A stretch of 64,000 nucleotides of DNA from Phycisphaerales bacterium (GTDB lineage Bacteria > Planctomycetota > Phycisphaerae > Phycisphaerales > UBA1924), in contig JADLCM010000039.1 in assembly GCA_020847175.1 (NCBI GenBank), positions 1 through 64,000 of the forward strand, read 5' to 3'. A program made the translations under genes and the position numbers. Below the pieces are notes generated by a model. The model searched no databases. It was not told the DNA's origin and was given only the letters and a program-made list of their open reading frames with translations. Positions 35,135-58,596 of this stretch are shown one piece after another (within the stretch, counting starts at the first letter, position 1; every line of letters starts with the position of its first letter).

Positions 35135-35671
35135 TCAACGCCCGCTGAAAGGGAGCGTGAGGGCGGTGTGGACGGGCGCGCCCCCGTCGGCAGGCTCAAA
35201 GCTCGCGTGCATGGTGAGGGCCTTGGGCGGGACAGCCTCGGGGGAGGGCCTGCGGGCGTCGAGGAGGAATCGGTAGGTTGTGAGGCCCCGGATGGTGCGT
35301 ACGCCGAGCCGGGCGGTCTGCTCGGGCACGACCCAGTGCTCGATCGTGGTCTCGGTTTCGTCGGTGACGGTGAAGGTGAAGGAACCCTCAACGGCGACGG
35401 GCTCAATGAACTTCGGGTCGTTCATGGTGAGGTAGGCCTCGACGATGTACTGGTCGGGGAAGCCGTCGGCGTTTCCGTCCGCGGGCGCGCTGGCCATCAG
35501 GGCAAGCTGGTCGGGATGAATGTCGGAGCGGACGGGGAGGGGCTGGGAGATTTCCATCCCCTTGTGGTCGTCATTGACGCACCCCCCGAGCGGGCCGAGC
35601 ACGATGAGGAAGGCGGTGCACGCCCCGGCGCAGTGCCGAGGAGACTTCGAACTCGGTCCTGGGTTACGCAC
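35135..35671 (-). CDS. Putative lipoprotein translationally coupled to the giant secretin
   Basis: The protein has 178 residues. Its start is GTG 35671, five bases after GGAGG and eight bases inside the end of the secretin gene, so translation is probably coupled. The N-terminus CTAFLIVLGPLGGC ends in a lipobox. The mature domain (IHPDQLALMASAPADGNADG, YIVEAYLTMND, VEGSFTFTVTDETETTIEHW) looks like a beta-sandwich. It has no recognised family. Because secretins commonly depend on small lipoproteins (pilotins) for outer-membrane targeting, the position suggests a helper role, but its size and predicted fold differ from known pilotins. Confidence 0.65.
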   Translation of the reverse strand: MRNPGPSSKSPRHCAGACTAFLIVLGPLGGCVNDDHKGMEISQPLPVRSDIHPDQLALMASAPADGNADGFPDQYIVEAYLTMNDPKFIEPVAVEGSFTFTVTDETETTIEHWVVPEQTARLGVRTIRGLTTYRFLLDARRPSPEAVPPKALTMHASFEPADGGAPVHTALTLPFSGR

Positions 35672-38600
35672 CGTCACCTCCTCCGAACCACGAACTGCTC
35701 CGCCTGGGTTCTTCGCCCGAGGTGCCGGGCCCATTCGCCGGGTCGTCAGCCTGGGGCAAGCCGGGGGCCGGCGGACTGCCGGCGCCGGGGGGAGGCGTGC
35801 CCCCGCCGGGCAGCGGGGCGGGCGGGATGCGCACGTCCGGCTGGCTGGGGTCGCCCTCCGGGCCCGGGGCGCCTTCGCGTCCGCGCGGGGGCAGGAGGGG
35901 GCGTTGCCCCTCGGTGGCCTGGCGGAGCATCTCGCGGATGCGGTCCTCGCCGGTCATTTCGTGGATGCGTTCATCGGTGAGTCGCTGCTGGCGGGCGACA
36001 TGCTGGGGCTTGGTGCCGCCGATCACGCGGGGCGTGAGGATGACGAGCAGTTCGGTCTTTACGGTGCGGCTCTCACGGGTGCGGAAGATGGGGCCGATGA
36101 TCGGCGCATCGCCGAAGAAGGGCACCTTGCTGGTGCGTGACTCGTCGGAGGTCTGCAGGAGCCCGCCGATGACGATGGTCTGTCCGTCCTTGACGGTCAC
36201 GGTGGTATCAACCTGGCGCCGGCTGATGATGGGGGCGGTGAAATCCTCCGACACCTGCGTCGTCCGCTGCGTGACGGCGGAGATCTGCGGGCGGATCTCA
36301 AGCCGCACGAACCCGTCGGCGCTGATCGAGGGCGTGACTTCGAGCAGGATGCCCACGTCTTCGCGGATGACGTTGGCCTGGGTGCGCCCGGTGTCGAAGG
36401 TCGTGACGCCGTCGAGGATGGCGATGTTCTCTCCCACCTGGATGAAGGCGTCCTCGTTGTTGTTCACCGTGACCTCGGGTCGGCTGAGCACTTCAAGCCG
36501 GCCCTTGGCCTGGAGCGACCGCATCAGCACCGAGAAGTCGCCCGACGAGACCGAGAGCTGCGGCAGGCCGATGGCGGCGGAGATCGCGGCCCCGGCGGGC
36601 GTGGAGCCGACGATGTAGTCGTCGCCCCCGAACGGACCCACGCGCACGTCCATGCCCCAGCTGTCCTCGCTGTCGAGGGTGACCTCGGCGAGCAGCACCT
36701 GGATGACCACCTGGGGGGGGGCGGAGTCGAGTTCTTCGACGATGGTCTTCACGGCCTCGATGTAGCGGGGCGAGGCGGAGATGACGAGCTTGTTGCTCTT
36801 CTCGTCGCCCACCACGGTCACTTCCTGCTCCAGCTGCCGCGTCAGCGAGCCGAGCTGGTCGTCTCGGAGGGTGCCCCGGACGCGTTCGATCTCCTGGCGG
36901 AAGTAGGACTGAAGCGTCTCTTCGACCTCCTTGGCCTTGGCGTTCTTCAAGTGATAGACGACGCGTTCGCGCTCGGTCGCCTCGATCTGGTCGAGCTGCT
37001 CGACGACGGTTCGCACAAGGGTCAGATACTCCGCGGTGCCCGAGACCAGCAGCGAGTTGGTGCGCGGGTCCACGGTGATCGAGAGTTCCTGGCGCTGGTC
37101 GGGCACCGGGGTGACGGTGGTGCCGCCGAAGGTGTCGCCGGCCGGAGCCCCGGGCTCGTCCTCGGGCGGGCGCGTGGGGAGGAGCACCAGGTCGTTCCCG
37201 CTCTGGCGCAGGTTGAAGAGGTCGCGCAGGAGTTCGGCCATCGCCTCGGCGTCGGCGTTCTTGAGGTTGAAGACGGCGATCTCGCGGTTGCCCGCCGTGG
37301 TCGTGTCGAGGTCGTTGATGATCTCGGTGATCAGCCCCATGAGCTGCGGCGGGGCGGAGATCATCACCGAGTTGGTGCGGAGGTCGGGCGTCAGGCGGAT
37401 GAGGTCGCGGATGGCGCCGTCGATCTCCGCTTCGGCCACCGGCCCGCCCTTCTCATCCTGCAGCGAGTCGGCCAGCGTGTCGCGGAGGAACCGGATGCGC
37501 ACCGCCTGGCGCGCGGCGGGCGAGTTCCGGCTGCCCCCCAGGGGGCGGCCCGCCAGCACCTCTTCGAGGAGGTTGACCACCTCGAGAGCGTTCGCGGTCT
37601 TGAGTTCGATGCGCCGGATCTGCTGCTCGGTCTGGATCACGGGCACGGCGAGCTGCTCGATGAGCCCCCGAACGGCCTCGATGTCGGCGTCGGTGCCGGT
37701 CACGATGATGGCGTTGAGGCGGTCGTTGGCGGTGACGACCACGGCGCCCTGGCCCCGGTTCTGGGTCTCGCGCTGCACGTAGAGCTGGTCGATGGCCTGG
37801 GCGAGTTCCGCCGCCTGCCCGCGCTCCACGGCGATCACTTCGACGCGCTGGGCACTGCCGGCCCCGCCCGCCCCGGCGGTGAGCGACGCGACGAGTTCGC
37901 GGATGATCTCGAAGTTCTCCTCGCTCGCCGCCACGATGAGCGAGCCGGTAGCCGGCTCGGCCTCGACGCTGACGGCGTCGGAGGGGCTTTCGGGCACGCC
38001 GGCGCGTCGCGTCGCGGCGAGGCGCTCGGACATCAGGCGCTGAATCTTGGGGGCGAGGGTGCGTACGTCGGCGTTGGGTGCTGGGAGCACGAAGACATTG
38101 ACGCTCAGGTTCGCCCGTTCGGCATCCAGGCTGGCGAGGAGCGATTCCAGCACCTGGAGGCTGCGGGCGCTGGTCGCGACCACCAGCGCGTTGGTCCGCG
38201 TGTCGGTGGAGATCACCAGCCGGTCCTCGGCCCGCAGGGCCCCGGACTGTTCGCGCTGGGCGAAGACCTCCTGGGCGATGCGGGCGACGCGGTCGGCGGC
38301 GGCGAAGCGCAGGGGGTAGACCCGCACTTCGTTGCCCGCCCCCGCCGCCTCGACATCGAGCATCGAGACGAGTTCGCGGATGACGCGGACGTTGTTGGTC
38401 GAGCCCACGACGATGAGGGAGCCGAGGCTCTCTTCGGGGGTGATCACGAGGCCCGACATCGGCGCGAAGAGGTCGGCCTGCACGCGGGATGCGGGGTCGC
38501 TTGGGTCGCCCCCGGCGAGGAGCATCCGCAGGCGCCCCACCTGTCGCTGGAGCGCCGTGGCCTCGGGCGTGCCCGAGAGCCCCGTCACCAGCACCTCGCG

Positions 38601-41600
38601 AAGCGTGCGCGCCAGGCGCACCGGGTCGGCGTGCTTGACCGGGATGATCGTCGGCTCCACCCAGTTGGTGACTTCGCTCGAGTCCAGGTCCTTGAGGATG
38701 ACTTCGACCAGCGCCACACCCTCCTCGTGCCCGGCGATGACCAGCGTGTTGGTGCGCTCGTCCACGCTGACGGCGATCGCGCCCGACAGGGCGCGCCCGG
38801 TCGTCGTGCTGGGCATGCCCTGGCGGGTGGTGCCGGGCAGGCGGCGCAGGTTGTCGCCCTGGCGGAAGAGATCGTCGATGACGCCCTTGATCCGCGTCGC
38901 GGAGGCGTTCTTCATCGGAAAGATCCGCACCACCACCGCCTCGCCCGAAGGCACGGTGTCGAGCAGCCGGGCGACTTCCTTGAGCGCCCGCACGTTCTCG
39001 GCGGTCGAGGCGATGAAGAGCGAGTTGGTGGCCGGGTCGGGGATGAGCCGCACGGGACGGGAGACATCGATCGAGAGCGGCCCGCCGTCCAGGTCCGGGC
39101 TGGCGATGTTGAGGCGCCGGATGTGCTCGGCCAGGGCCGCGCCGGCCCCGCCCTCGGGGCCCACCGTGGCATCGGTCTTGAGCATCCGCTGCACGGCCTG
39201 CGCGGTGGCCGAGGCGTCGGCAAGCTTCAGGAAGACGACTTCCGCGGCCTGCACGGCATCCAGGGGCTCCGCATCCATCGCCTCGATCAAGCGCCGGATC
39301 GCCTGGGCATCGGCCTTGCCGGCGACCACGGCAACGGCGAGGCGCCCGGGCACTACCGAGAGCTGGACCGGCTCGCTCACGACGCCGGGCCGGTCGCCCT
39401 GCGAGGGGCGGGTAACGCCGAGCGATGTCAGCAGGTCGATGATCGCCTGGGGCGCGTTGTGATGCACGTCGATAAACTCGACCATCTGCCCGGGGCCGGC
39501 ACGCGGACCATCGCCCTCGGGGGGCGCGGAATCGTCCGGGCCGTCGAGGTCGCGCACCAGGCGCTCGACCTGCTCAAAGACCCGTTCGCTCGCGCCGACG
39601 ACCAGGGCGTTGCCGCCGCGCTCGATCTCGACCGTCAGCGTTTCGCCCTGCTGGCGTGCGACGGGCGAGAAGGTGTTGAGCACGATGTCGCGCAGCCGGG
39701 CGGCGGGCATGTTCCGCACGCGGATGACCCGGGGCGAGGCGACGCTCTCCTCCAGTCGTGACTCCAGGGTCTGCGCCAGCGAGAGAATCTGGGTGAACTG
39801 CTCCTCCGGGGCGCGCACGATCACGCTGTTGCTCGCATCATCGCCGTAGATCATCACGGCCCGCAGGCCCTGGCGCCCTTCGCGGGCCGCGAAAGTCTCG
39901 CGGAGGGCCTGGGCGACGGTCGAAGCACGCCCGCGGGAGAGCGGGATCACGCGGGGATCGGGGAGTTTCAGGATGTCGGGCACATCCAGCTGGCGCACCA
40001 CGCTCTCGATCCGTTCCAGGTCCTTGCGCGAGGCGAAGACGATGAGCGCGTTGGTCAACGGCTCGGCGGAGACGCTCGGCGTGTCGTCGTTGCCTCCGAG
40101 GGCGGCGGGCACGACCGGGCGGGGCGTGTCGCGCCCGTTCGGGTTCGGCTGGCCACCCCGGGCCCGCTCGGCCTCGTCGCGGGCACGCTGCTCCTGCAGC
40201 GCCCGCTGGAGGGCGGAGCCGAAGCCCTCGTTGAGGGCCCGGGCCACGCTCTCGGCGTCGGCGTGCGCGAGCGGGATGACGACGAGTTGGCGCGAGGTGT
40301 CGTATTCCGCCGTGTCGAGGCGGGCGAGCAGGGCCTTGATGCCCTCCCATTCGCCCTCGTCGGCGCTGATGACCAGCGAGTTGCTCGACGGGTCGGCGAC
40401 GATGGAGGTGTTGCGCGCCCCGGGGGTCGCGGCCTCGGTCGCGAGCCGCCCGTAGAAGACGCGCAGCGCCTTGGCCGTCGGGTCGGCGGAAGCGAACTGG
40501 AGTTTCACGAACTCGGTGCGGCGTGTAGTCGCCAGGGGCACGTCGAGTTCGCGGATCATCTCCTCGATCTGTGTCAGCTGGTCCGGCGTGGCCGAGATGG
40601 AGAGGGTGTTGTCCGCGCTGGAATAGTCGATGCTCGCCTGCGGCTCGTTGGGCCCGCCCCGGCGCGACCGCATGAGCTGGTTCACCGTCAGCCACACGTC
40701 GTCGGCCATGGCGTGGTTGATCTTCACGCGCTTGAAGACCGCGAGGCTGCGGGGGGGCTCGGTGTCGAGCTTCTTGATCTGCTCGACCACCATCGCGATC
40801 GAGTCGTTCGAGCCGGTCAGGAGCAGCGAGTTGCTGCGTTCCACGGGGGTGATCTGCACCTTGATGGCGCCGGGCAGGGCGGCGCGCAGGCTGGCGGCGA
40901 CGTCCGCGGCGCGGGCCTTGTCGAGGTTGACCGTCAGGAACGCGACGTCGTCCACGCCCGGGGCGCGGTCCACGGCCGCGATGAGCGTCTCCATCTCCGC
41001 CGCCACGGCGCCGGGCATCGAGATGATGAGGCTGCGGGTGCTCTCCTGGGGGGTGACGATGACGCGGTCCGCGGCCCGCGCGAGCGGGAACATGGCCTGG
41101 ATGGTCGCGGCGGCCTCGCGGGGTTCGACGTTCTTGAGGGTGTAGACCTTGATGTCGCGGTCCGGCCCGAGTTCGGGCTGGTCGATCTGCTCGACGAGTG
41201 TGCGCACCACGGCGAGGTCGTCGGGGCGGGCGCTCACGATGAGCACATTGCCGTCGTCGGAGCCGATCACCGAGACATCATCCTCGCGCCGTCCCTCGGC
41301 GCGGGCGCGGTCCTGGAAGAACTGGTTGATGCTCCGGGCCGCGCGGTTGGCCTGGGCGTGGCGCAGGGTGATCGAGGCGATCTCCTGCCCCTGGCGCTGG
41401 GCCGAGGCATCGAGCTGGCGGATGTACGCCTCGGCGTCGTCCACCTTTGCCTTCGGGCCCACGAGCAGAAGCACGCGTCGCTGCCGGTCAATCTCGACCG
41501 CCACGGCGTTGGGGTCCGGGCCCCACCAGTCGCGCCATCCGGGCGACTGCATCGTCTGCACGATCACCCGCTGGATGGCGTTCAGGTCGCCGTGCTCGGC

Positions 41601-44600
41601 CTGCACCGCCCGCACGACGTTCTTCACCTCGTCGCTGGGCTTGGCGTCCATCGCGGCGATCACGCGCTCCATCACGCCCATGATCTCGCCCGAGCCCATC
41701 ATCACGATGCTGTTGGACCCCTCCGCCGCCACGGTGTAGACCTGGCCCGAGCCGGAGTCCTCGCCGTCGTTCCAGTTGCCGCCGAACTGGAAGTTCCAGA
41801 CGACATCGGAGATGGTGTTCTGCACGTCCGTTGCGCGCGCGACCTTGAGGGGCACGACCTTGATGTCGAAACTCTGCGTGCTTGAAGCGCGGTCGAAGTT
41901 GGCGACCATCGCCTCGACCTGCTTGAAGTCTTCGTCGCCCGCCGCCACGATCAGCGTGCCGGAGCGCTTGTCGCCGGCGATGGCGACGCGCGCCCCCCCC
42001 CGACGGTTGGCGCTCGGGTTGGCCTGACCGCGGGCCTGGAAGAACTGGCCCAGCGTTCGCGCCACCACGCTGGCGTCGGCGCGCTCGAGGTGCAGGGTGC
42101 GCACCGGGAGCCCCGCGGCCTCCGCGACGTCAACCTGGGCCACGATCTCGATGATCTGACCCATCTCCTCCGCGGGCGCCTTGACCACCAGCACGTTCGA
42201 GTTGTCGTCCGCCGAGACCTGCACCAGGTCGCGCTTGCCGGGGTCGCGTCCGACGATCACCTCGTCGATGACGCGCTCGATCGTGCTGGGCGACGCCTGC
42301 TGCAGGGTGAAGATCTGGGTGAGCAGGTCGGGCCGGTCGAGTTCGGCATCGGCTTCATTGAGCAGTCGCTTGACTTCCTCGTGCTGAGTCTGCGAGGCCG
42401 TGACGAGGATCGCGTTGGTCCGCGCGTCGGCGACGAAGCGGGCCCGGGGCAGGTCCTCCGAACCCGGCCCCTGGCGCTGGGCGTCAAAGAGCGCACCCAA
42501 GGTCCGCGAGAGGTCGTCGGCCCGCGCGTTGGAGAGCGCATACCGCCGGATCGCGAGCCGTTCAGTGACGGGGCTCTGGTCGATCACGCCCACGAAGGCA
42601 TCGATCAGGCCGAACGCCTCCTCGGGCGCCGAGACGATGATCGCCGTCCCCGACGGGTCGGGAGTGACCGAGACCAGGTTCGGGTCCACGCTCGCGCGTG
42701 CCCCCGGCGCGCCGTCAAGGGTCAGGTCCAACTTGCGCAGGCGCTGCGCCTGGCGCCCCTGCGGCGAGACGCTGACCAGGTCGCGCACGCTCGCGGCCGC
42801 GTTCTCCGCCCGTGCGTTCTCCAGCCGGTAGACCTTCACCGTCAGCGACGTTTCGCGCACGCCCCGGGCCAGCGTGCCCACCAGTTTGCCGACCACTTCA
42901 AAATCGGTGTCGTTCGCCCAGACGATGATCCCCTCGCCTCCCGGCTCGGCGATCACCCCCACCCGCCCGGTGAACCCGCCCGGGTTCTCGGCGGTGGACT
43001 GGCCCACCTGGCGCACCGTCTCACGCACGATCTGCACGATCGAATCGGCGGGCGTGCCCTCGGGCAGGGCCACGATGCGCACCGCGCTCGGCTCGGCGGG
43101 CATCTGTCCCTGCAACTCGTCCACCAGGCGGGCCACCTGCTCGGCGGCCCGGGTCGAGCCGACCACGATCAGGCTGTTGGTCCTGGGGTCCACCGCGATC
43201 GTGATTGCGGGTTCGTCCGCTTCGCCTTCAGCCGGGGCGGCGTCAGCCGTGCCGGGCTGCGCCGGCGCACTTGCCCAGACCGCCGCCGCCGCGCCCGTGC
43301 CCGGAACGCTCAGCCCGGGAAATCGCGCGCCCGCGGGCGACCCCTCCTCTCCATCCGTGACCCGCGACGACGGCCGACCCGCCGGGGGTGGAGATGGAGG
43401 AGGCGGGGGGGCCGTCACCGGCTCGTTCAGCAGTTCTTCGGCCGAGATGATCTCGACGCGCACGCCCCCGCTGCGCTCCAGCAGTTGCTTGAGGGTGCGG
43501 GCCATCGTCTGCGCATCGGCGCGCGAGCGGTCCACGGGCACGAGGCGCATCTCGCGCGCCCCGGCGAGGGTCGCTTCGTCCACGCGCTTGACGAGCGCCT
43601 CGATCTGGGTGAGCTGCTCGGGCGTCGCGCGCACGATGAGGGTGTTGCTCCCGGCGTCCACGCGGATGAACGGGGCCGGGCCCTCGCCCTCGCTGAACAT
43701 CTCGGTCGCAGTCTGGGCCAGCACCGCCGCGTCGGCGTTCTGCACCGGCAGCACCCACAAGGGGCGGGGCAGGTCGCCCTCGCCCTTGGCGTCGAGGCTG
43801 GAGATCATGTCTTCGGCCACGTCCAGCACGCTGGCGGACCCGCTGACGATGACCGCATTGAGGCGCGGCTCGGCCACCACCCGGACCTCAGCCTCGTCGC
43901 CGGTCGTCGCCCGGCGCGACGAGGACCACCACGCCCATTCAGGGTCCTGCTCGCCCTTGCTCAGCAGTTCCTGCACGATCGGGGCGAGGGCCTCGGCCCG
44001 CGCGTGCTTGAGAAAGACCGTGCGCACGCCGGAGCGCACGGCGTCCACCGACTCGTCCATCGAGCGGATCAGTTGCCCGGCCCGTTCCAGCGTGGCGGGG
44101 CTGGCGGCGATGAGCACCGAGTTGCTGCGGGCTTCGGGGGTGACCACGGGCTCGCGCTCGCCGGGCTTCACCCCGGCCCGCAGGCTGATCATCAGCGCCT
44201 GCGCCACCGAGGCCGCCTCGCCCTTCTCGAGCTTGAACACCTGGAGATCAAAGGTCGTGCCCTCGCCCGCTTCCTCGAGCGTCGTCACGAGCGATCGGGC
44301 GAGGGGCATGAGGCCGCTCGGGGCGCTGACAACCAGCCGGTTGCCCGCGGCGTCGGCGTTCACGGTCGGGGCCGCCACGGGCAGGCCCGCCCGCTCGGCG
44401 CGCCGGAGTTCCTCGGGCCAGCGCGAGCGGTCGGCGAGCATGCCTTGCACCATCCCCGCGACCACGCCCGCGGAGGCGTTGCGCAGCGGGATCACCGCGA
44501 GATCGACCTGCGGCAGGCTCGGCGTCCGCTCGTCGAACTCGGCGAGCAGACGCACGCCCTCGGCGACCTGCTCGGTGGTGCCGATGACGACCACGGCCCC

Positions 44601-47600
44601 GCTCCGGGGCTCGGGCACGAACTGGAGCTTCACGCGCGCGGGGGGCAGCGTGCTGTCGGCGATGCGCTGCACCGCCTCGACCAGCGACCGGGCTTCGCCC
44701 CGCGCAGGCGTGAACGTGGCGACCACGCGCCCGGGGTCTTCGGCGGGCTGGTCGAGACGCTCGATGATGGTCCGCGCCAGGTCCAGCGTGCCCTTGGGGG
44801 CTGAAACGATGAGTGCGTTGGTCCGGGCTTCGGCTTCGACGCGAAGGCCGACGCGCTGGGGCCACTGTCCGCGGTTTGCCCGCAGCGTCGCCGCGATCAC
44901 CCGCGGGTCGTTCGCCATCTGGTCATTGAGCAGCCGCTCCACGATCGGGGCGACCTGCGCCGCGTCGGCATTGACCAGCTTGAACGTCTCAGCCGCGGCG
45001 GCGTTCTCGTCCACCGGGCGGGTGTCGAGCTCGCCGAGCAGAGTTTCGACCTTGGCGAGGTCGGCCTCGGCCCCGGCGAGAATCAGGCTGTTGGCGCCCC
45101 CCGCGGAGAGCACGGTCACTTCGCCCCCGCTGGGCAGGTTCATGGTGGGGATGGCGCGGATGATGGTCTGCGACACCTGGTTCGCGTCGGCGTAGGTCAG
45201 GGGCACGACGCGGATCGTCGTCCGCCCGATCTCCGCCGCCTCCACGTCGAGGCTCTTGATGAGCTGCTCGGCGACCTGCTGGGCCTCCTCCGGGCCGGAG
45301 ACGATGAGCGTGTTGCTCGCCTTGTCCGCGGCGACCTCCAGCATCGACTGGATCTCCGCCGCCCGGGCCCCCGAGGCGCCCTCGTTCGCCATCATGCGGT
45401 TGACGAGCAGGTTCTGCAGGAGAGGCTGGAGCCGTTCGGCCCGCGCGTGCTGGAGGGCGTACAGGCGCATGCTGGTCAGGGGCCGGTCCGGCGCCGCGTC
45501 GAGTTCGCTCAGCACCTTCTCGACGGGGGCGAAGATCGCCTCGGGTCCGCTCACCACGATGGTGCGGCTCACGGGCTCGCTCTCGATCGTGACGCCCTGC
45601 TGCCCCGGGTTGCCCAGCGCGCCGCTGGAGGCCAGCTGGCGGAGGGTCTGAAGCACGGCCCCGAGTTCGGCCCGCTCGACGCGGTACGTGCGCAGTTCGG
45701 TGTCCGCCGCGAGCTTGTGCTGGTCCAGGCTTCGCACCAGCTGCTCGAAGCCGACGAGCCGCTTCGCGGGCGCATCGACGATGAGCGAGTTGGTGCCCCG
45801 GTCGGCGCGCACTACCACCTCGCGCGGCTGGCGCAGGTCATACCGGGGCTGGCGCGTGCGCGGGTCGATCGGCACCGGGGGCTCTGGGAACATCTGGTCG
45901 ATCGTCTGGGCGAGTTCTTCGGCCCGGGCGATCTGCAGCGGGAAGATGCGGATCTCGCGCTCCTCGCTGTCGTACTCCTGCGTCTGGTTCAGTTCGTTGA
46001 CCAGGGCCTCGATCTCGGGCAGCACCTCGGGGTGCGCCGAGATGATCAGCGTGTTGGTCGCGGGGTCGGCCTGCACATCCACCGGGCGCTTGGTGCGCTC
46101 CTCGGCGCCGCGCCGGGCGTACGAATCGTTGAGCACCTGGGCGAGGTTCCCGGCGTCCGTGCTGCGCAGCTTGAGCATGCGCAGCGGGGGCCTCTCGCCG
46201 GACTGTTGCGCATCGAGGTTGCGCACCAGCTGCTCGATCAGCGGCATCTGCCCGGGCTGGGCGGCGATCATCACGCTGTTGGTCGCCTCGATGGGCTCGA
46301 AGATCGGCTCGGCCCCGCTCCCGGCCCGGAAGCTCGCGCTCGACTTCACGAGGTCGCGGAGGAAGTCGACCACCGTCGACGCCTGGGCGAAGCGGATCTC
46401 CACCAGCCGCACCTCGCGGGCCGGCCCCGCCTGGCGCTGCAGCTGCTCGATGATCTTCGTGAACCGCTCCAGCCCCGCGGCATCGCCCACCACCTCCAGC
46501 GTGTTGGTGTCGCCGTTGACGGTCACGTCCACCGGCTCCGACCCCGGCAGTTCCGCGGTCTGCGCCTGGTAGATCGCCATGGCCCTGTCGCGCACATCGG
46601 TGGCCTCGGCGTTGGCGATGGGCAGGATGCGCAGTTCGCGGCGCACCGGCACCGCCGCCAGTTCCTGCAGCACCTGCTCCACGCGCTCGAAGGTCGTGGA
46701 GTCGCCCGCGACGATGAGGGTCTGGCTCATCGGCTCGGTCTCGATCATCACGCGCACGGTCTGCTTGCCCGGCTGCGCCGGGGCCGACAGGTTGCCCTGC
46801 GACGAGAGCGCCGTGAGCGTTCGCGCCACGGCGTTCAGGTCCGCCTTCTCGATCCGGTAGGTCCGCAGTTCCGCCGCGGGGGGCAGTTCCACGCGGTCGA
46901 GGCGGCTGGCGAGTTCCTCCAGCGAGGCGATCCGCTCGGTGGGCGCATCAATGATGAGCGAGTTGCTGCTCGGGTCCGCCGAGACATTGACTTCCTTTTC
47001 CTTCTGCAGCCAGGGCATGGGCTGGTTGCGCCGGTCGCGGGGCATCGGGGGCACCGGGTAGAGGCGGTCCATCGCGGCCGCCACGTCCGTCGCCTTCGCA
47101 ACCTTGAGCTGGAAGAGCACCGTGGTGCGCTCGGGGCCCTCTTTCAGTTCCTTGTTCAGCGTCTCGACGAGCTGGCGGATGTCTTCGTAGAAGTCCTGGT
47201 GGGCCGACACGATGAGCGTGTTGGTGTTGGGGTCGGCCTGCACTTCGACGGGGCGCTCCGCCCGGTCCTGCTGCGAGCGCCGGTCGTACCGCTGCTGGAG
47301 CATCCGCGCCACGCCCTCGGCGTCGCTCGTCCGCAGCTGGAGCATGCGCATCGGGGGCAGCTTGGTGAACTCCACCTGGTCCAGCCGGGTCACGAACGTC
47401 TGGATGAGCGCGTGCTGGGCGTCCTCGGCGGTCACCAGCAGGCCGTTGGTCCGCTCGTTGACGCGGATCGTCGGGGCCGGCACCGCGCGCGTGGGGTCGA
47501 TCGGCTCGGCGCTCGAGAGCAGTTCCTGGAGCGGCTTGAGGATGTCCGCCGCCCGCGCGTTGCGCACCTCGACAAACCGCGTCGTCCGCGCCGGGGGCAG

Positions 47601-49673
47601 CATCTGCTGTGCCGTGCTCACCGCCTCGGTGAAATAGCGCATCGCCACCGGCCTGGCCGTGATGAGCAGGCTGCCCGTCGCCGCGTCGGGGGTCACGTCG
47701 AGCGTGCCCAGTTCCGCCGGGTCCATGCCCGCGACCCGCGCGTCGTAGATGACCCGCGCCCGCTGGGCGATGTCCTCGGGCCGCCCCTGCCCCACGCGCA
47801 CCACCCGGAACTCGGTGTCCCCGGGCTTGGCGCGGTCCAGTTCCTTCACAAGTCCTTCGATCACGGCGAACTGGTCTTCCTGGGCGCGCACGACCAGCAG
47901 CTTGAGCTCGTCCAACCCTTCAAAGGTCGGCTGCGGCGCCTTGGACCCGTCCGCCCGCTCCAGCATCGGCCCAGCGAGGCGCGGCAGCACGCCCGCCAAC
48001 TCGCTCGGGCGCCTCACCTGCACGCCGATCGTCCGCGTCTGGATCTGCGCCGGGGTGATCGCCTGCACGCTCCGCAGCACCTGCTCGAACCGCGCGATCG
48101 CCGCCGCGCTGCCCACCAGCGTCAGCGTCCGGTCGGTCTCGCTGTAGGCCGCGCTCAGCTCCGGCTCCTGCTCGGGGCGGGTCTGCGTGAAGAGATCGCG
48201 GGCCCGGGCCACCGCCTCGCTCGCGCCCGGCTCTTCCATGCGCACCAGGCGCACCTGGCGCTCCACCTGCGGGGGCACATCGAGCCCCGTCACGAACCGC
48301 TCGAACTCGTCCACGTCCGCCGGCGGGCCGCTGACCACCAGTCCGCGCCCGTCGAGCGCCGCCGCGAACCGCAGCACCTGCACCTGGCGTGCCGTGAGCA
48401 GCCGCGACGCAAGCTGCTCAATGCTCCCCGGCGTCACGTGCTTGAGCCCGATTACCCGTCCCACGCGCTCGGGGCTGGGCTGGGCATCTTCCGGCCCCGC
48501 GCCCGGGTCAACCTCGCCGAGCAGCGCCGCGCCCTGGGCCAGCAGCCCGGTCGCGCCCACGATCGTCACCTTGCCCACGTCCGCCAGGGGCAGGATCGTC
48601 GGCTTCCGCTCGGGCGGCACCGCCCGGTACAGCCCCTCCAGGTGCGTCGCGGCCTCCGCCGCCGTGATCGAACGCAGCGCGAACGTCATCATCTGCTGCT
48701 CGCCCTGCCCGCTTTCGGGCACGTCCAGCAACTTGATGAGTTCCTCAACCACCTCGATGCGGGCGCGCGGGCCCACGACGATGACGCTGCGCGTCCGCGG
48801 GTCGGGCTGCATCTGCACCCCGCCCACGTCGATCTCTTCAACCACCCGCTGCGTGCCGTTGGAATCCAGGATGATCTGCTTCTGGCGGATGCCGATCAGC
48901 CCCTTGAGGGCCTCCACCACGGCCGCCGGGTCCGCGTGGCTCAGCTTGAAGAGCCGGAACTGCGAGTCCACCGCGCGCTCCGAGTCGATCACGCGCACCA
49001 GGTCGATGATGCGCCTCGCCTGCGCGGCGCTCTCCACGAGCACCAGCATGTTCTGCGCCTGCACCGGCGTGATTGACCCGTGCGGGCCGAGCAGCGGCGC
49101 CAGCTGCTGGGCAATCAGAGTCGCCGCCGCGTTGTTGAGCGGGATCGTCACCGTCACGATCCGGTCGGCGGTCATCTCCGGGGGCACCTGCCCCTCGGCC
49201 ACCGGCGTCGGCTTGCGGAAGGCCTCGTCCAAGCTGGAGAGGTACAGGTACTTCTCCTCGCGCCGGAGTTGCACGTTCAACGGCGCAAGGTTCAGGTTCA
49301 GCACCGAGAGCGCCTCGTCAAACGACATCTCGGCGCCGCTGATGAACGTCATCTGCCCGCCCGGCACCGGAACCTCCCGGATCACCGGCAGCCCGGTCTC
49401 CCGCGAGAAAAAGTCCAGCACCAGGTCGAAGGGTTGGTCCTTGAAGTTGAACCGGATGGGGCGCGGCGTCACGTCCGCCGGGGCCGCCGAAGGGGCCGCT
49501 GCCGGGTTGTCCGGGTTCGCCCCGGGCGCAGGAGCGCCGGCGGGGGCTTCCGGGGCCGTGATCGGGGCCGGCACCTCGGCGCCGCCCCCGGGCTGGAGGC
49601 TCCACGCAGGCGATGCAAGCCCCGCGGCCAGCACCAGCGACCAAGCCCCGTTCCGCGTGTTCTGCCGCTCCAT
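35664..49673 (-). CDS. gspD: Giant type II secretion secretin (GspD) with about 50 N-domain repeats
   Basis: The protein has 4669 residues, against about 650-750 for usual GspD. It has a signal peptide and an Ala/Pro stretch, then an N0 domain at about 71-148 (IRFNFKDQPFDLVLDFFSRE). Roughly fifty tandem secretin-N repeats of 70-110 residues cover about 170-4320. Each has a leading beta strand with an x-A-x-A pattern, then a D-x-R-T-N-S-L-I-V strand and a final helix ending in L-D. A single secretin pore domain lies at about 4321-4551 (VLSRPEVTVNNNEDAFIQVG, VTVKDGQTIVIGGLL, VPFFGDAPIIGPIFR, LVILTPRVIGG). A Pro/Gly-rich tail follows. GGAGA lies eight bases before ATG 49673. A perfect TTGACA sits about 105 bases upstream (49775-49780), without a clear -10. 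It is the outer-membrane channel of the T2SS encoded just upstream. Confidence 0.93.
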   Translation of the reverse strand: MERQNTRNGAWSLVLAAGLASPAWSLQPGGGAEVPAPITAPEAPAGAPAPGANPDNPAAAPSAAPADVTPRPIRFNFKDQPFDLVLDFFSRETGLPVIREVPVPGGQMTFISGAEMSFDEALSVLNLNLAPLNVQLRREEKYLYLSSLDEAFRKPTPVAEGQVPPEMTADRIVTVTIPLNNAAATLIAQQLAPLLGPHGSITPVQAQNMLVLVESAAQARRIIDLVRVIDSERAVDSQFRLFKLSHADPAAVVEALKGLIGIRQKQIILDSNGTQRVVEEIDVGGVQMQPDPRTRSVIVVGPRARIEVVEELIKLLDVPESGQGEQQMMTFALRSITAAEAATHLEGLYRAVPPERKPTILPLADVGKVTIVGATGLLAQGAALLGEVDPGAGPEDAQPSPERVGRVIGLKHVTPGSIEQLASRLLTARQVQVLRFAAALDGRGLVVSGPPADVDEFERFVTGLDVPPQVERQVRLVRMEEPGASEAVARARDLFTQTRPEQEPELSAAYSETDRTLTLVGSAAAIARFEQVLRSVQAITPAQIQTRTIGVQVRRPSELAGVLPRLAGPMLERADGSKAPQPTFEGLDELKLLVVRAQEDQFAVIEGLVKELDRAKPGDTEFRVVRVGQGRPEDIAQRARVIYDARVAGMDPAELGTLDVTPDAATGSLLITARPVAMRYFTEAVSTAQQMLPPARTTRFVEVRNARAADILKPLQELLSSAEPIDPTRAVPAPTIRVNERTNGLLVTAEDAQHALIQTFVTRLDQVEFTKLPPMRMLQLRTSDAEGVARMLQQRYDRRSQQDRAERPVEVQADPNTNTLIVSAHQDFYEDIRQLVETLNKELKEGPERTTVLFQLKVAKATDVAAAMDRLYPVPPMPRDRRNQPMPWLQKEKEVNVSADPSSNSLIIDAPTERIASLEELASRLDRVELPPAAELRTYRIEKADLNAVARTLTALSSQGNLSAPAQPGKQTVRVMIETEPMSQTLIVAGDSTTFERVEQVLQELAAVPVRRELRILPIANAEATDVRDRAMAIYQAQTAELPGSEPVDVTVNGDTNTLEVVGDAAGLERFTKIIEQLQRQAGPAREVRLVEIRFAQASTVVDFLRDLVKSSASFRAGSGAEPIFEPIEATNSVMIAAQPGQMPLIEQLVRNLDAQQSGERPPLRMLKLRSTDAGNLAQVLNDSYARRGAEERTKRPVDVQADPATNTLIISAHPEVLPEIEALVNELNQTQEYDSEEREIRIFPLQIARAEELAQTIDQMFPEPPVPIDPRTRQPRYDLRQPREVVVRADRGTNSLIVDAPAKRLVGFEQLVRSLDQHKLAADTELRTYRVERAELGAVLQTLRQLASSGALGNPGQQGVTIESEPVSRTIVVSGPEAIFAPVEKVLSELDAAPDRPLTSMRLYALQHARAERLQPLLQNLLVNRMMANEGASGARAAEIQSMLEVAADKASNTLIVSGPEEAQQVAEQLIKSLDVEAAEIGRTTIRVVPLTYADANQVSQTIIRAIPTMNLPSGGEVTVLSAGGANSLILAGAEADLAKVETLLGELDTRPVDENAAAAETFKLVNADAAQVAPIVERLLNDQMANDPRVIAATLRANRGQWPQRVGLRVEAEARTNALIVSAPKGTLDLARTIIERLDQPAEDPGRVVATFTPARGEARSLVEAVQRIADSTLPPARVKLQFVPEPRSGAVVVIGTTEQVAEGVRLLAEFDERTPSLPQVDLAVIPLRNASAGVVAGMVQGMLADRSRWPEELRRAERAGLPVAAPTVNADAAGNRLVVSAPSGLMPLARSLVTTLEEAGEGTTFDLQVFKLEKGEAASVAQALMISLRAGVKPGEREPVVTPEARSNSVLIAASPATLERAGQLIRSMDESVDAVRSGVRTVFLKHARAEALAPIVQELLSKGEQDPEWAWWSSSRRATTGDEAEVRVVAEPRLNAVIVSGSASVLDVAEDMISSLDAKGEGDLPRPLWVLPVQNADAAVLAQTATEMFSEGEGPAPFIRVDAGSNTLIVRATPEQLTQIEALVKRVDEATLAGAREMRLVPVDRSRADAQTMARTLKQLLERSGGVRVEIISAEELLNEPVTAPPPPPSPPPAGRPSSRVTDGEEGSPAGARFPGLSVPGTGAAAAVWASAPAQPGTADAAPAEGEADEPAITIAVDPRTNSLIVVGSTRAAEQVARLVDELQGQMPAEPSAVRIVALPEGTPADSIVQIVRETVRQVGQSTAENPGGFTGRVGVIAEPGGEGIIVWANDTDFEVVGKLVGTLARGVRETSLTVKVYRLENARAENAAASVRDLVSVSPQGRQAQRLRKLDLTLDGAPGARASVDPNLVSVTPDPSGTAIIVSAPEEAFGLIDAFVGVIDQSPVTERLAIRRYALSNARADDLSRTLGALFDAQRQGPGSEDLPRARFVADARTNAILVTASQTQHEEVKRLLNEADAELDRPDLLTQIFTLQQASPSTIERVIDEVIVGRDPGKRDLVQVSADDNSNVLVVKAPAEEMGQIIEIVAQVDVAEAAGLPVRTLHLERADASVVARTLGQFFQARGQANPSANRRGGARVAIAGDKRSGTLIVAAGDEDFKQVEAMVANFDRASSTQSFDIKVVPLKVARATDVQNTISDVVWNFQFGGNWNDGEDSGSGQVYTVAAEGSNSIVMMGSGEIMGVMERVIAAMDAKPSDEVKNVVRAVQAEHGDLNAIQRVIVQTMQSPGWRDWWGPDPNAVAVEIDRQRRVLLLVGPKAKVDDAEAYIRQLDASAQRQGQEIASITLRHAQANRAARSINQFFQDRARAEGRREDDVSVIGSDDGNVLIVSARPDDLAVVRTLVEQIDQPELGPDRDIKVYTLKNVEPREAAATIQAMFPLARAADRVIVTPQESTRSLIISMPGAVAAEMETLIAAVDRAPGVDDVAFLTVNLDKARAADVAASLRAALPGAIKVQITPVERSNSLLLTGSNDSIAMVVEQIKKLDTEPPRSLAVFKRVKINHAMADDVWLTVNQLMRSRRGGPNEPQASIDYSSADNTLSISATPDQLTQIEEMIRELDVPLATTRRTEFVKLQFASADPTAKALRVFYGRLATEAATPGARNTSIVADPSSNSLVISADEGEWEGIKALLARLDTAEYDTSRQLVVIPLAHADAESVARALNEGFGSALQRALQEQRARDEAERARGGQPNPNGRDTPRPVVPAALGGNDDTPSVSAEPLTNALIVFASRKDLERIESVVRQLDVPDILKLPDPRVIPLSRGRASTVAQALRETFAAREGRQGLRAVMIYGDDASNSVIVRAPEEQFTQILSLAQTLESRLEESVASPRVIRVRNMPAARLRDIVLNTFSPVARQQGETLTVEIERGGNALVVGASERVFEQVERLVRDLDGPDDSAPPEGDGPRAGPGQMVEFIDVHHNAPQAIIDLLTSLGVTRPSQGDRPGVVSEPVQLSVVPGRLAVAVVAGKADAQAIRRLIEAMDAEPLDAVQAAEVVFLKLADASATAQAVQRMLKTDATVGPEGGAGAALAEHIRRLNIASPDLDGGPLSIDVSRPVRLIPDPATNSLFIASTAENVRALKEVARLLDTVPSGEAVVVRIFPMKNASATRIKGVIDDLFRQGDNLRRLPGTTRQGMPSTTTGRALSGAIAVSVDERTNTLVIAGHEEGVALVEVILKDLDSSEVTNWVEPTIIPVKHADPVRLARTLREVLVTGLSGTPEATALQRQVGRLRMLLAGGDPSDPASRVQADLFAPMSGLVITPEESLGSLIVVGSTNNVRVIRELVSMLDVEAAGAGNEVRVYPLRFAAADRVARIAQEVFAQREQSGALRAEDRLVISTDTRTNALVVATSARSLQVLESLLASLDAERANLSVNVFVLPAPNADVRTLAPKIQRLMSERLAATRRAGVPESPSDAVSVEAEPATGSLIVAASEENFEIIRELVASLTAGAGGAGSAQRVEVIAVERGQAAELAQAIDQLYVQRETQNRGQGAVVVTANDRLNAIIVTGTDADIEAVRGLIEQLAVPVIQTEQQIRRIELKTANALEVVNLLEEVLAGRPLGGSRNSPAARQAVRIRFLRDTLADSLQDEKGGPVAEAEIDGAIRDLIRLTPDLRTNSVMISAPPQLMGLITEIINDLDTTTAGNREIAVFNLKNADAEAMAELLRDLFNLRQSGNDLVLLPTRPPEDEPGAPAGDTFGGTTVTPVPDQRQELSITVDPRTNSLLVSGTAEYLTLVRTVVEQLDQIEATERERVVYHLKNAKAKEVEETLQSYFRQEIERVRGTLRDDQLGSLTRQLEQEVTVVGDEKSNKLVISASPRYIEAVKTIVEELDSAPPQVVIQVLLAEVTLDSEDSWGMDVRVGPFGGDDYIVGSTPAGAAISAAIGLPQLSVSSGDFSVLMRSLQAKGRLEVLSRPEVTVNNNEDAFIQVGENIAILDGVTTFDTGRTQANVIREDVGILLEVTPSISADGFVRLEIRPQISAVTQRTTQVSEDFTAPIISRRQVDTTVTVKDGQTIVIGGLLQTSDESRTSKVPFFGDAPIIGPIFRTRESRTVKTELLVILTPRVIGGTKPQHVARQQRLTDERIHEMTGEDRIREMLRQATEGQRPLLPPRGREGAPGPEGDPSQPDVRIPPAPLPGGGTPPPGAGSPPAPGLPQADDPANGPGTSGEEPRRSSSWFGGGDGA
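45480..47822 (-). repeat. Two-copy five-domain super-repeat inside the giant secretin
   Basis: Residues of about 618-1010 and 1011-1398 correspond domain by domain across five consecutive N repeats. Matching pairs include MRMLQLRTSDAEGVARML with LRMLKLRSTDAGNLAQVL, and RPVEVQADPNTNTLIVSAH with RPVDVQADPATNTLIISAH. Others are SNSLIIDAPTERI with TNSLIVDAPAKRL, and ELRTYRIEKADLNAVARTL with ELRTYRVERAELGAVLQTL. This shows that a block of about 390 residues was duplicated as a unit. Boundaries are approximate, read by eye. Confidence 0.75.
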
Positions 49674-49928: not shown

Positions 49929-50915
49929 CTATGCCTGCACGGGCCGTCGCTGCGCCAGGTTTTCGCCCAGCCGCACTTCGCACGAGGCACCCTCCACCTC
50001 GAACACCGCGCGCTCGCCCGACGCTTCAACCAGGCGTGCGCCGAGCACCGTCCCGCCGGGCTGAAGCACCATGGCCGTGTGCGACGATGCGTTGTACAGG
50101 GTCACTTCCACGCGGGCCTCCGCGCCCGTGCCTGTCACCGCGATGCCCGTGATGCGCCAATCGTGATACGCCGGCGCCGGGGGAGGGGGCGGGTCTTGGC
50201 GCGCCACCACCGGCACCACGACCGGAGGAGGCGGCGCCGCCGGAGGCACATACCGAAAGACGTTCTTGCTCACGATTCCGGCCCATACCGGCGCGCTCTC
50301 ATCGTCCGTCGGCGCCAGGGCCCGCACCTCCGCCGACCCATACTCGGGGATGTACAGCACCTCAAACGCCACCCGCAGTTCCAGCAGCGTCCGGTCCTCG
50401 TTCCGGGGCCGGATCGAGAACCCCGTCACCCGCTGCACCCAGGGCTGCCCCTGCACGAGCGCGAGCGTCCGCATGGATTGTCCGAGGTCGCCGAGGCCCC
50501 TCAGTTCGCATCCCACGACACCGAAGTCGCGCTGGGCCCCCATCGGCTTCCGCAGAGAGGTCAACCCCACGCGCCGGGCCCGCGCGTAGGGATTGGCCGG
50601 GTACGTCACCCCGCCGCTCGACACGACCGGCTCCTGGAGGCCCGCCCGCGTGGCAATGCCGTGGATCATCCCGCGCAGCACGTGCTCGGCCTGGTCGGTC
50701 GGCCCGGCCAGCGCCTCCGCCGAACGTGCCCGCAGCTCTTTGCGCACCTGCGGTGCTTCCAGCAGGAGGCGCTCAAACTGCTCGTTGCGGCTCGCGTGGG
50801 CCGCGAGCTTGGACCGCAGCGCTCGGGCCGGGGAGGCATACATCGTCGAATACGCCAGCCACGCGATCACGCCCGCGCCCGCCGCCGCCCCCGCGATGAC
50901 CAGGGCTTTCTTCAT
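49929..50915 (-). CDS. T2SS inner-membrane protein, GspM/PilO-like with GspC/PilP-like C-terminus
   Basis: The protein has 328 residues. It has one N-terminal membrane helix (LVIAGAAAGAGVIAWLAY), a helical then ferredoxin-like region as in GspM/PilO, and a Pro-rich linker (PPAAPPPPVVV). The C-terminal domain is YHDWRITGIAVTGTGAEARV, then YNASSHTAMVLQPGGTVLGA, VVEASGERAVFEVEG-like and RLGENL. This end resembles the GspC homology region or PilP, the part that touches the first secretin domain. No separate gspC is present. It overlaps the GspL-like gene by four bases and is 255 bases upstream of gspD. Confidence 0.6.
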   Translation of the reverse strand: MKKALVIAGAAAGAGVIAWLAYSTMYASPARALRSKLAAHASRNEQFERLLLEAPQVRKELRARSAEALAGPTDQAEHVLRGMIHGIATRAGLQEPVVSSGGVTYPANPYARARRVGLTSLRKPMGAQRDFGVVGCELRGLGDLGQSMRTLALVQGQPWVQRVTGFSIRPRNEDRTLLELRVAFEVLYIPEYGSAEVRALAPTDDESAPVWAGIVSKNVFRYVPPAAPPPPVVVPVVARQDPPPPPAPAYHDWRITGIAVTGTGAEARVEVTLYNASSHTAMVLQPGGTVLGARLVEASGERAVFEVEGASCEVRLGENLAQRRPVQA

Positions 50916-52402
50916 GGCTTGGCCCCCTCGGGGCTCAGGCGCGCCGTGTCAAGGTCGATGCTGAACTGGCGTCCCGCGTCGGGCCCGTCGGCCCGCACCA
51001 CGTACCCGCCCGCCCGGATCAGCCGTTCACGCACCAGGTCCACCATCGCCGGGATGCCCCCCGCGCCGTCGATCGACAGCCGCAGGCGCGGCGGCTGGGC
51101 CCACGTGCCGGTCATCGCGTCACCCCCCTCGCCCGGGACGAACGCCAGCGTCTGGTCGAGCGACCCGCTCACGTTCGACAGCAGCGCCTCGGACGGATCG
51201 GGCAGGTGGGTGCTCAGCCATGCAAGGTGGCTCACCCAGTCAGGCTTGGCACTCTGCCAGGCCTTGAGATGCAACAACCGCCCCTTTTCGAGCAGGAACT
51301 TCACGTACTGCGCCGAGAGCTCCTTCTCGCGCTCTCCCGCCGCCGCCGCCTGCGTGCGGAGGTGCGAAAGCGCCTGCTGCGCCGCGAGCCATCCCGCGCC
51401 CCCCAGCACGATCAGCCCCAGCACGCCGAGCAGAGCGCCCTGGCGCGCCCGGGCGAAGCGGTCCGCCGGTTCGTGCGGGTGAGCAAAGTCGAGCATCTGC
51501 TCGCGCCCCAGCATCGCCAGTCCGGCCAGGCCCGCCAACTCCGAGGCACGCGTCCCGCCGGCGCCCCATTTCGCGATGCGGGCCGGGTCCAGCGCCTCGG
51601 TGGGCGTTTCCAGCGCCGCGGCGGTGCGCTCCGCCGCCTTGACGCACACCTCGTCATTGCCCAGCACCACCACGCGGGCCAGGCGCGCGCCTTCAAGGCT
51701 CAACCTGTGGCTCATCCACGTGCGCTTGGCCTCGACGCCAACCTTCTGCGCGAACCCCTCGATGTCGCCCCCTTCCTCGGGCCGAGGAAGTTCGGCAGTG
51801 CGTGAGAACGACACGCTTCCTTCTTCGACCAGTGTGAACTCCACCGAGCCAGGCCCCAGCCCCATCACGAGCGTCGAGCCCTCTTCACGAGGCACCAGGG
51901 GCCCCGCCCCGAAACTCCGCAGCGTGATGGCGCGGAGCCCGATCCCGCCGCGCTCCGCCGCCAGTTTCAGGAGTTCAACCCGCGCGCCCCCCATCACGCC
52001 CGCCATGACCGCGGGGGGCCCGCCCGCCGAGCCCTCGAAGAACACGTAGTCCACCACGGGGTTTTCCCCCGCGACCGAGCTCTGCCGCAGGGCCTGCAAC
52101 CGCACCATGCCGGGCAGGTCCGGATCATCGCGCGTCATCGTCGCGGGCAGCGGCATCCGCTTCAGCACGGCGTCGCGCCGGGGCAGGGCGATCACCACGC
52201 CCTTGACCGGAATCCGCCCTTCCTCCAGCGCTTGGCGCATCCATCGCCCCAGCGCCTCGGCATCCGCCCCGTCCACGCCCGCGGGGCGCTTGCGCACGGT
52301 CGCACGCGGCACACGCCACCCGGCGCGCCGGGGCGTCACCTCAATCGCGGACAAGAAGTCCCCGTCGAGCTCCAGGATCGCGCGTGTCCGTCCGCCGCTC
52401 AT
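50912..52402 (-). CDS. T2SS GspL / PilM-PilN-like protein
   Basis: The protein has 496 residues. The N-terminal 300 residues follow an actin-like PilM/GspL pattern: AILELDGDFLSAIEV, GVVIALPRRDAVLKRMPLPA, STLVMGLGPGSVEFTLVEEG and VVVLGNDEVC. One membrane helix (GVLGLIVLGGAGWLAAQQAL), a coiled stretch and a ferredoxin-like PilN/GspL periplasmic domain follow. In a T2SS, GspL links the cytoplasmic ATPase to the inner-membrane platform. ATGA overlaps join it to gspK upstream and to the GspM-like gene downstream. Confidence 0.75.
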   Translation of the reverse strand: MSGGRTRAILELDGDFLSAIEVTPRRAGWRVPRATVRKRPAGVDGADAEALGRWMRQALEEGRIPVKGVVIALPRRDAVLKRMPLPATMTRDDPDLPGMVRLQALRQSSVAGENPVVDYVFFEGSAGGPPAVMAGVMGGARVELLKLAAERGGIGLRAITLRSFGAGPLVPREEGSTLVMGLGPGSVEFTLVEEGSVSFSRTAELPRPEEGGDIEGFAQKVGVEAKRTWMSHRLSLEGARLARVVVLGNDEVCVKAAERTAAALETPTEALDPARIAKWGAGGTRASELAGLAGLAMLGREQMLDFAHPHEPADRFARARQGALLGVLGLIVLGGAGWLAAQQALSHLRTQAAAAGEREKELSAQYVKFLLEKGRLLHLKAWQSAKPDWVSHLAWLSTHLPDPSEALLSNVSGSLDQTLAFVPGEGGDAMTGTWAQPPRLRLSIDGAGGIPAMVDLVRERLIRAGGYVVRADGPDAGRQFSIDLDTARLSPEGAKP

Positions 52403-56406: not shown

Positions 56407-56491
56407 CACACCTCCGGCTCACGCCGGCAACGCCAGCCCAGGCCCGGAGGCCCGGGCCTGCCCCGGCGAGCGGCCGAACTTGGACGCACGA

Positions 56492-57004: not shown

Positions 57005-57117
57005 GCGTGATTCCTTTCGCAACTCTTTGTCGGGCAATGCTTTGCCGCCAAGTTCCACCGCCCTGGCCGGGCCTCCGCACCACCCTCATCCGTGTCGAAA
57101 CCAACCCTTCGGACTGC

Positions 57118-58455: not shown

Positions 58456-58596
58456 GCGGGGCCTCCCGAAGCGGGCGTGCGGCACGGGGTTCAGCGGCCC
58501 AGCGGAAGGGCACAACGCGCCCGTCCGTGAGGCCCCGTGTGTCCCGTGGGGGTTGGCGTGCCGGCGGCGGCATGACGTGCGACGTGACCTCCACTC

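Follow-up and report, generated by a model that had tools for sequence, protein, structure and literature searches.

The window analyzed here, a stretch of 64,000 nucleotides from the genome of a Phycisphaerales bacterium, contains on its minus strand a gene for a 4,669-residue protein that is a type II-like secretin in which the domain number is up about tenfold and which is conserved across the class Phycisphaerae. In this giant secretin, a predicted N0 domain is followed by fifty N-type domains and a single pore domain; we estimate at roughly 0.5, slightly better than even, the probability that it forms a stack of about fifty rings, that is, a conduit 120-180 nm long connecting the cytoplasmic and outer membranes. 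The long spanning stack is favored by the orthology of individual tiers, the predicted GspD-like N0-N1-N2 start, the location of the pore and a candidate pilotin at the far end, and the placement of natural splits within a domain. In ordinary relatives the ring-type domain occurs about one to six times, versus roughly 30 to 60 times in the giants of this class.

Domain architecture of the giant secretin

The gene and its parts are laid out as follows.

35664..49673, minus strand: giant secretin gene, 4,669 amino acids (aa), with signal peptide, N0, 50 N-type domains, secretin pore and proline-rich tail
49596..49673, minus strand: signal peptide, residues ~1-26, judged by eye on the translation
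49224..49460, minus strand: predicted N0 domain, residues ~72-150
36714..49154, minus strand: array of 50 N-type domains, residues 174-4320, from Pfam Secretin_N and a self-made hidden Markov model (HMM)
43308..43445, minus strand: insert inside domain N25, proline-rich part, residues 2077-2122
45489..47351, minus strand: internal duplication with a five-domain offset, N9-N11 versus N14-N16 (50, 41 and 46% identical)
36021..36515, minus strand: secretin pore domain, residues 4387-4551, from PF00263 and matches to GspD structures in the PDB
35664..35996, minus strand: C-terminal proline-rich tail, residues ~4560-4669

The frame is open across all 4,669 codons and shows strong coding bias (GC content at third codon positions, 0.93). 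By Pfam, 46 stretches match Secretin_N significantly and a single region matches Secretin, and the repeat HMM, built from the giant itself, yields 51 matches that tile residues 174-4320, two of which are the halves of one domain, leaving 50 N-type domains, flanked by a single N0 on one side and the single pore on the other; among the controls (20 shuffles and the reversed sequence), the shuffles gave no matches. An earlier reading made from the sequence alone had counted about fifty repeats, which agrees with both figures (50 by the HMM, 46 by Pfam alone), and had described a single C-terminal pore, which is indeed represented by one PF00263 match (E 2.2e-46, 158 bits, cut-off 27.5) and matches the GspD structures 5wq7 and 5wln (E ~1e-38). 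The proline-rich tail appears to occupy the position of the S-domain in GspD. In the PilQ proteins of type IV pili, AMIN domains precede N0; no AMIN domain is present in the giant among the Pfam families listed at E up to 1. GspD normally consists of N0 plus N1-N3, and this three-domain layout is not that of the giant with its 50 N-type domains; the N1-N3 set is the usual but not a strictly defining one, the number of N domains varying among secretins, according to an excerpt of PMC8563730.

The gene contains no detectable DNA tandem repeat, and the identity between tiers inside the array averages 21.5%. This low within-array identity, together with the orthology of tiers described below, excludes recent tandem expansion or repeat slippage; a single older duplication, with the five-domain offset, is still visible. 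The two best conserved tiers (46887-47120, residues 852-929, and 45717-45953, residues 1241-1319; 71 and 78% mean identity, respectively) each possess a proline-rich loop and are both part of this duplication, and they possibly represent a gate or a joint.

Conservation of individual tiers and spread of the giants

A length-limited protein search scored 1,396 candidates and identified 667 relatives at E up to 0.001. The best 120 of the 667 range from 2,624 to 4,897 aa, most being of ~4,600 aa, and contain a median of 50 N-domain matches (exactly 50 in 47 proteins, 51 in 23, 38-41 in 17; range 27-54). From these, 119 relatives were aligned to the window protein; because the search words came from residues 3900-4600 (combined with a length limit), this sample is biased to proteins with an intact C-terminal part. 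In 5,485 (97%) of the 5,642 domain pairs aligned, each domain is the best match of the other and both occupy the same array position. HMM hits 34-51 (N33-N50) are present in all 119 relatives and hits 1-4 are missing in at most three, and several more distant arrays of the window's type carry two additional domains toward the pore end. The mean identity per HMM hit is 32-78%, mostly 45-65%, and the middle tiers are for the most part as conserved as the ends. As judged from these alignments, the tiers seem to be individuals, unlike a free-running repeat, each needing its own sequence; such a need would be expected of homotypic rings.

The sequence-only reading proposed a search of Phycisphaerae genomes for the same layout, and at least 77 of the 298 genomes of the class have a pore match in a frame of at least 2,400 aa (in all genome draws, frames were counted from stop to stop). 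Seven of these genomes are single-contig, and the single-contig genome G036 is an eighth giant-bearing case; a few of the 77 represent pore chains of the two-chain systems considered below, e.g., G058, which is the same contig as locus L056. In a draw of 294 genomes from the phylum, seven genomes contain such frames among the matches listed, all of them in the class Phycisphaerae, and the frames from other classes reach 1,491 aa among the matches listed. The longest array found, with 63 N-type domain matches in a 6,169-aa frame, belongs to L139 (G101:C18:5622-25621). In public records the relatives are automatically labeled 'type II secretion system protein D' or 'secretin N-terminal domain-containing protein'. 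A search by title and abstract of the open PMC literature, with preprints outside its scope, returned no paper on secretins with tens of N domains, and in the same literature no paper combines Phycisphaerae, type II secretion and secretin.

Origin of the arrays

Three array types can be distinguished: type A, that of the window; type B (L060, L061, L063-L066 and L069); and type C (L062 and L067). In a tree of pore domains, from which six long-branch rows were excluded (L002, L004, L005, L108, L111 and L084), types A (27 rows), B (7 rows) and C (L062, L067) each form one clade, with Shimodaira-Hasegawa-like approximate likelihood ratio values of 99, 97 and 98, and a single clade of all array-bearing pores is not rejected (approximately unbiased test, p 0.572); alignment A2 is without L062 and L056, and alignment A3 without L049. 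Between type A and types B and C, colinearity of domains hardly extends beyond the last tiers, near the pore (P0001 versus L061, 7 colinear/13 reciprocal, P 0.078; P0001 versus L069, P 0.0425). The colinear/reciprocal counts for the other pairs are 13/16 for L061 (B) and L067 (C), 8/9 for L061 and L062, and 14/16 for L062 and L067. From these comparisons, the array types would be either separate expansions from an ancestor of medium length or the result of turnover of one old giant array.

Among the matches listed, two giant-bearing records are titled Verrucomicrobiota (L062) and Cyanobacteria (L037); the latter has the window's array type and is probably mis-titled, whereas the array type of L062 differs. 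In genomes G195, G235 and G282 of family f6, the best pore matches among those listed have E values typical of ordinary secretins (1e-25 to 1e-29).

Arrays divided between two proteins

Beyond the sequence-only reading, this analysis reveals arrays that are split between two exported proteins, with the break inside one domain, and a signal-like insert at that very spot in single-chain giants. Two-chain loci include L064-L066, of array type B, and L123, L124, L126-L131 and L133, of families f17 and f19. In these loci, the first gene encodes an N-only protein of 2,601-3,524 aa (stop to stop) with 21-33 N domains where complete, and the second gene encodes the pore in a protein of 1,511-1,764 aa with 12-15 N domains; L050 and L056, of the window's array type A, are split as well. 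Where the start is present, both chains have hydrophobic N-terminal segments, as judged by eye, and loci with two complete chains add up to 35-48 tiers.

In each of the 14 split loci (a set without L125, which duplicates the record of L066, and without L132, which is truncated on the 5' side), the end of chain 1 corresponds, by mostly weak matches, to the beginning of an N domain whose later part opens chain 2 after its leader; the tail of chain 1 of L064 was judged by eye. A stronger test gave the same picture: when profiles of the chain-1 end and the chain-2 start were searched in single-chain giants, they adjoined in six of the six type A proteins (L047, L051, L054, L134, L135 and L140; 128-166 and 98-174 bits, gap of 35-66 residues). 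In the other group, they adjoined in L061, L069, L137, L138 and L142 (117-159 and 98-123 bits, with no second-best place above 83), with a gap of 75-182 residues and no N domain inside; the tail match of L136 is not distinctive (77 bits, 337 residues), and for L062, L067 and L139 the profile search gave no clear break place. Because the profiles map side by side in single-chain giants, the break falls inside one domain, at the insert, and the retention of both halves of the split domain argues for one continuous, end-to-end array.

The insert was located in all of the best 120 of the 667 relatives. An uncharged 11-residue stretch with a mean hydropathy of at least 1.3 is present in 84 of the 120 inserts, versus a mean of 18.5 and a maximum of 28 when each insert was shuffled over 200 rounds, and a small-x-small-Q site just past the hydrophobic stretch is found in 27 versus 1.4 (maximum 5); with non-redundant inserts (n=111), the figures are 78 versus 17.8 for the stretch and 24 versus 1.5 for the site. 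The remaining 36 inserts are under the hydropathy cut-off, and that of the window falls just short of it (1.23) and contains the small-x-small-Q site. In single-chain relatives of the second group, e.g., L069, L137, L138 and L142, the insert contains segments such as a hydrophobic run preceded by basic residues and followed by A-x-A-Q. Inserts in other domains are shorter, which makes them an unfair control, and they were not used. The idea that the signal-like segment would be the top hydrophobic window of the whole array was rejected: this window lies in the insert in only 1 of 30 motif-placed proteins, because strands of the domains score higher.

These sequence features would fit either of two histories, namely that single-chain giants are fusions of a two-gene ancestor, the insert being the relic of the second signal peptide, or that the long chain is still cut at the insert; a third possibility is that the insert is a membrane or lumen anchor. 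The insert sequences vary freely while their character persists, which favors a present function.

The gspF-M operon and neighboring genes

The giant gene is the last one of a gspF-G-H-I-J-K-L-M operon in which H, I, J, L and M are recognized by weak family matches.

57262..58515, minus strand: GspF inner-membrane platform (T2SSF E 6e-51)
56492..57058, minus strand: GspG major pseudopilin (T2SSG E 4.3e-17)
55564..56409, minus strand: GspH-like pseudopilin (N_methyl E 1.3e-6, gspH E 5e-4)
55007..55567, minus strand: GspI-like, weak (ComGE E 4.6e-5, gspI E 0.014)
54183..55010, minus strand: GspJ-like (T2SSJ E 1.9e-4, under the curated cut-off)
52399..54186, minus strand: GspK-like, 595 aa (T2SSK E 2.3e-8; NF037980 E 7e-8, under its cut-off)
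50912..52402, minus strand: GspL/PilM-like, weak, 496 aa (TIGR01175 PilM E 1.7e-4, far under its cut-off)
49929..50915, minus strand: GspM-like, 328 aa (conserved C-terminal region, weak GspC match)
35135..35734, minus strand: small lipoprotein (lipobox LGGC), candidate pilotin, from sequence and the conserved place of the lipobox open reading frame (ORF)

The operon setting claimed by the sequence-only reading holds in the window, by family matches, and in relatives: gspF, G, K, L and M occur in order (tblastn) in 15 of the 19 single-chain loci of type A for which 10 kb of upstream sequence is available, the exceptions including L054, without F, and L081, with F on the opposite strand at the edge and no match for G. 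Ordinary secretins of other lineages (698-941 aa; L070, L073, L074 and L077-L080) follow gspF and gspG in 7 of 7 loci and gspK in 6 of 7, which puts the giant in the position of GspD. The same reading took the architecture to be a distinct one, and this is supported by hundreds of relatives and, in two families, by co-inheritance with the operon. Among the matches listed, the array pore and a strong GspM occur together in 16 of 27 genomes of family f1 and are both lacking in 11 (one with a weak GspM), and in family f2 the corresponding numbers are 11 of 20 and 9 (one weak); strong GspM relatives are thus found in exactly those f1 and f2 genomes that have an array pore. This co-occurrence was assessed in f1 and f2, the GspM profile matching weakly elsewhere.

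A lipobox ORF is found downstream of the pore gene in 22 of the 33 array loci versus 3 of 30 ordinary loci, one of the three being L055, a truncated giant; the count covers 63 of 80 loci, one of the others having too short a flank and the remainder being lost to the pore-score filter or to a contig end. Relatives of the window's lipoprotein are located downstream in other loci (tblastn), and the protein is, by sequence and place, a candidate pilotin. The ~85-aa C-terminal region of the GspM-like protein is conserved, with invariant Y, W and G; it may be the partner of N0, and a weak GspC match is present in 4 of 22 GspM members. As for a GspE ATPase, the genome of the window has 13 PF00437 matches, 12 of them over the cut-off. 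The neighborhood is not that of a type III injectisome, the genes scanned around the giant encoding pseudopilins and GspF; no search for injectisome genes was made elsewhere in the genome.

Other genes nearby include one for a second protein with a C-terminal T2SSG match (59314-60150, E 2.7e-7), a glutathione peroxidase-like gene (58597-59256) that is found beside gspF in several relatives too, and a 1,471-aa ORF (28355-32770) that appears AsmA/TamB-like by eye and has no Pfam match at 0.001; if it is truly of this kind, an envelope-bridging protein of ordinary length is encoded there.

A model of the stack and its alternatives

In the proposed stack, every N domain would form a ring with the same domain of neighboring subunits, as in solved secretins; N0 would face the GspF/L/M platform at the inner membrane, the lipoprotein would pilot the pore into the outer membrane, and the GspG-K pseudopilus would be active within the tube or at its base. 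The array would likely be built as two halves that meet in one split domain and are supplied by two genes or by one chain with a signal-like insert. Its length would let the machine bridge a locally very wide periplasm, as described for planctomycetes with an invaginating cytoplasmic membrane, and cargo would reach the surface without release into the periplasmic space.

The dimensions can be estimated from solved secretins. Excerpts of the respective reports give 350 Å for the six rings of PilQ of Thermus thermophilus (PMC5745081), and 220 Å for a composite model of pIV with two N domains, a secretin with two N domains spanning the ~21 nm periplasm of Escherichia coli (PMC8563730). The PilQ and pIV lengths imply ~33 Å per tier and hence ~180 nm for fifty-one tiers. 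An alternative value of 25 Å per tier leads to ~125-135 nm. The copy number of GspD is fifteen; fifteen copies of the giant, at 501 kDa each, would make a complex of 7.5 MDa. In the planctomycete Planctopirus limnophila, the periplasm can be hugely enlarged by invagination, according to an excerpt of PMC5394234. This species belongs to a class other than Phycisphaerae.

Several observations weigh against the long stack. Described Phycisphaerae are without crateriform structures, as stated in excerpts of PMC7783415 and PMC8882080, and our literature search found no periplasm width for any giant-bearing organism. The genome that encodes the giant has four further secretins in frames of 738-1,283 aa, so that the explanation must be a local rather than a general thickening of the envelope, or else a different fold. 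Structure prediction of repeat blocks, a check that the sequence-only reading called for, turned out in part favorable: the N-terminal model has the N0-N1-N2 geometry of PulD, in agreement with a GspD-type start, whereas it fits other N0-N1-N2 crystals worse (3ezj, 8 Å; XcpQ, 15 Å), and the inter-domain geometry of the block models is unreliable (predicted template modeling scores of 0.37 and 0.33). The modeled middle block matches ring-state GspD chains over ~190 residues only with a root-mean-square deviation as large as 13-15 Å. Domain losses affect cassettes of several domains within hits 5-33 (e.g., hits 18-21, 7-11 and 7-15), and L040, outside the set of 119, is without hits 34-35. At the split ends, matches are weak, exceeding 10 bits at both ends in 3 of the 14 loci (L050, L056 and L128) and at one end or more in 7. 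Finally, no gspE, gspC or gspO was recognized in the operon, an HR-like (GspC) domain in GspM was sought by PDB and Pfam profile searches with alignments of 22 and 19 rows that returned nothing relevant (a weak lead is unconfirmed), L036 has only L and M, and L045, with its full flank, has no gsp gene by tblastn.

Part of this evidence fits an unlikely but substantial alternative, in which the array is not straight: rings would form just beside N0 and the pore, and the middle would fold back or pack sideways as a periplasmic chamber or skirt in which cargo would be held or sorted. For a straight stack, the envelope would have to be several times wider than usual in a cell whose other secretins are of ordinary length, the lost cassettes come from the middle while both ends are retained, and the predicted geometry of the middle differs from that of ring GspD. 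On the other hand, the middle tiers are mostly conserved like the ends, position by position, and complementary half domains are kept at the break of the split loci, as end-to-end continuity predicts. Of the shapes offered by the sequence-only reading, then, a long stack that crosses the periplasm is favored, and the fold-back, the lateral chamber and the filament are less so.

Another, improbable, reading is that a few chains act as a flexible tether or ruler instead of a tube, so that the distance between the pore and the inner membrane they connect could vary. To our knowledge, only N0 has an established inner-membrane role, which would suit a tether, and in solved secretins the N domains often show poor order (PMC8563730, in excerpt); such a device would be expected to drift in length and exchange repeats, but the number and identity of the tiers are largely fixed. 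There is a similarly small chance that the N domains serve as a scaffold binding peptidoglycan, polysaccharide or cargo, with secretion secondary: uptake of polysaccharide into the periplasm is assumed for planctomycetes (PMC8882080, in excerpt), and in two-chain systems the N-only protein often has a basic tail at its end, but at E up to 1 the giant matches no Pfam family that binds carbohydrate or peptidoglycan, and the gene sits in a pseudopilin operon. An assembly or annotation artefact, conceivable for a 70-contig assembly, is refuted by the hundreds of relatives from several sources, including several single-contig genomes, and by the absence of a DNA tandem repeat, and retains a negligible probability.

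A bolder form of the long-stack model is possible but doubtful: the giant would be the longest protein ring stack known, a 7.5-MDa assembly of ~fifty individually conserved tiers, 120-180 nm long, made of two separately translocated halves that share one split domain, and in the one-gene forms a mid-protein signal peptide would re-start export and be cut out.

The conservation of fifty tiers implies either that the envelope is in places five or more times wider or that N domains can serve a purpose different from stacking. If the envelope is locally that wide, the debate on the planctomycete cell plan becomes testable with one protein marker. The arrays also provide a natural series (11 and 27-63 tiers, in one chain or two) for the study of length control in trans-envelope machines, and the split-domain joint and the signal-like insert suggest a way in which export and assembly of such stacks in parts could proceed.

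Comparison with known systems

The giant resembles GspD/PulD (6hcg, 5wq7) in the predicted N0-N1-N2 geometry, the pore domain, the place in a gspF-M operon and, possibly, a pilotin, and differs from it in having fifty N-type domains after N0 instead of N1-N3. The two-chain array secretins (L050, L056; L064-L066; L123, L124, L126-L131 and L133) share with it the array and the pore, the array being divided between an N-only exported protein and the pore protein. Intermediate lengths are represented by the planctomycetal secretins L082 and L085 (~1,280 aa, 6 N domains), which possess extra N domains like the giant, and by L068, a secretin from a metagenome-assembled genome of Gemmataceae (1,968 aa, 11 N domains), whose array is not colinear with that of the giant. 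The PilQ protein of T. thermophilus likewise forms an extended stack of rings (N0-N5), which is said to span most of a wide periplasm in an excerpt of PMC5745081, but this stack comprises six rings over 350 Å and belongs to a secretin of pili and DNA uptake.
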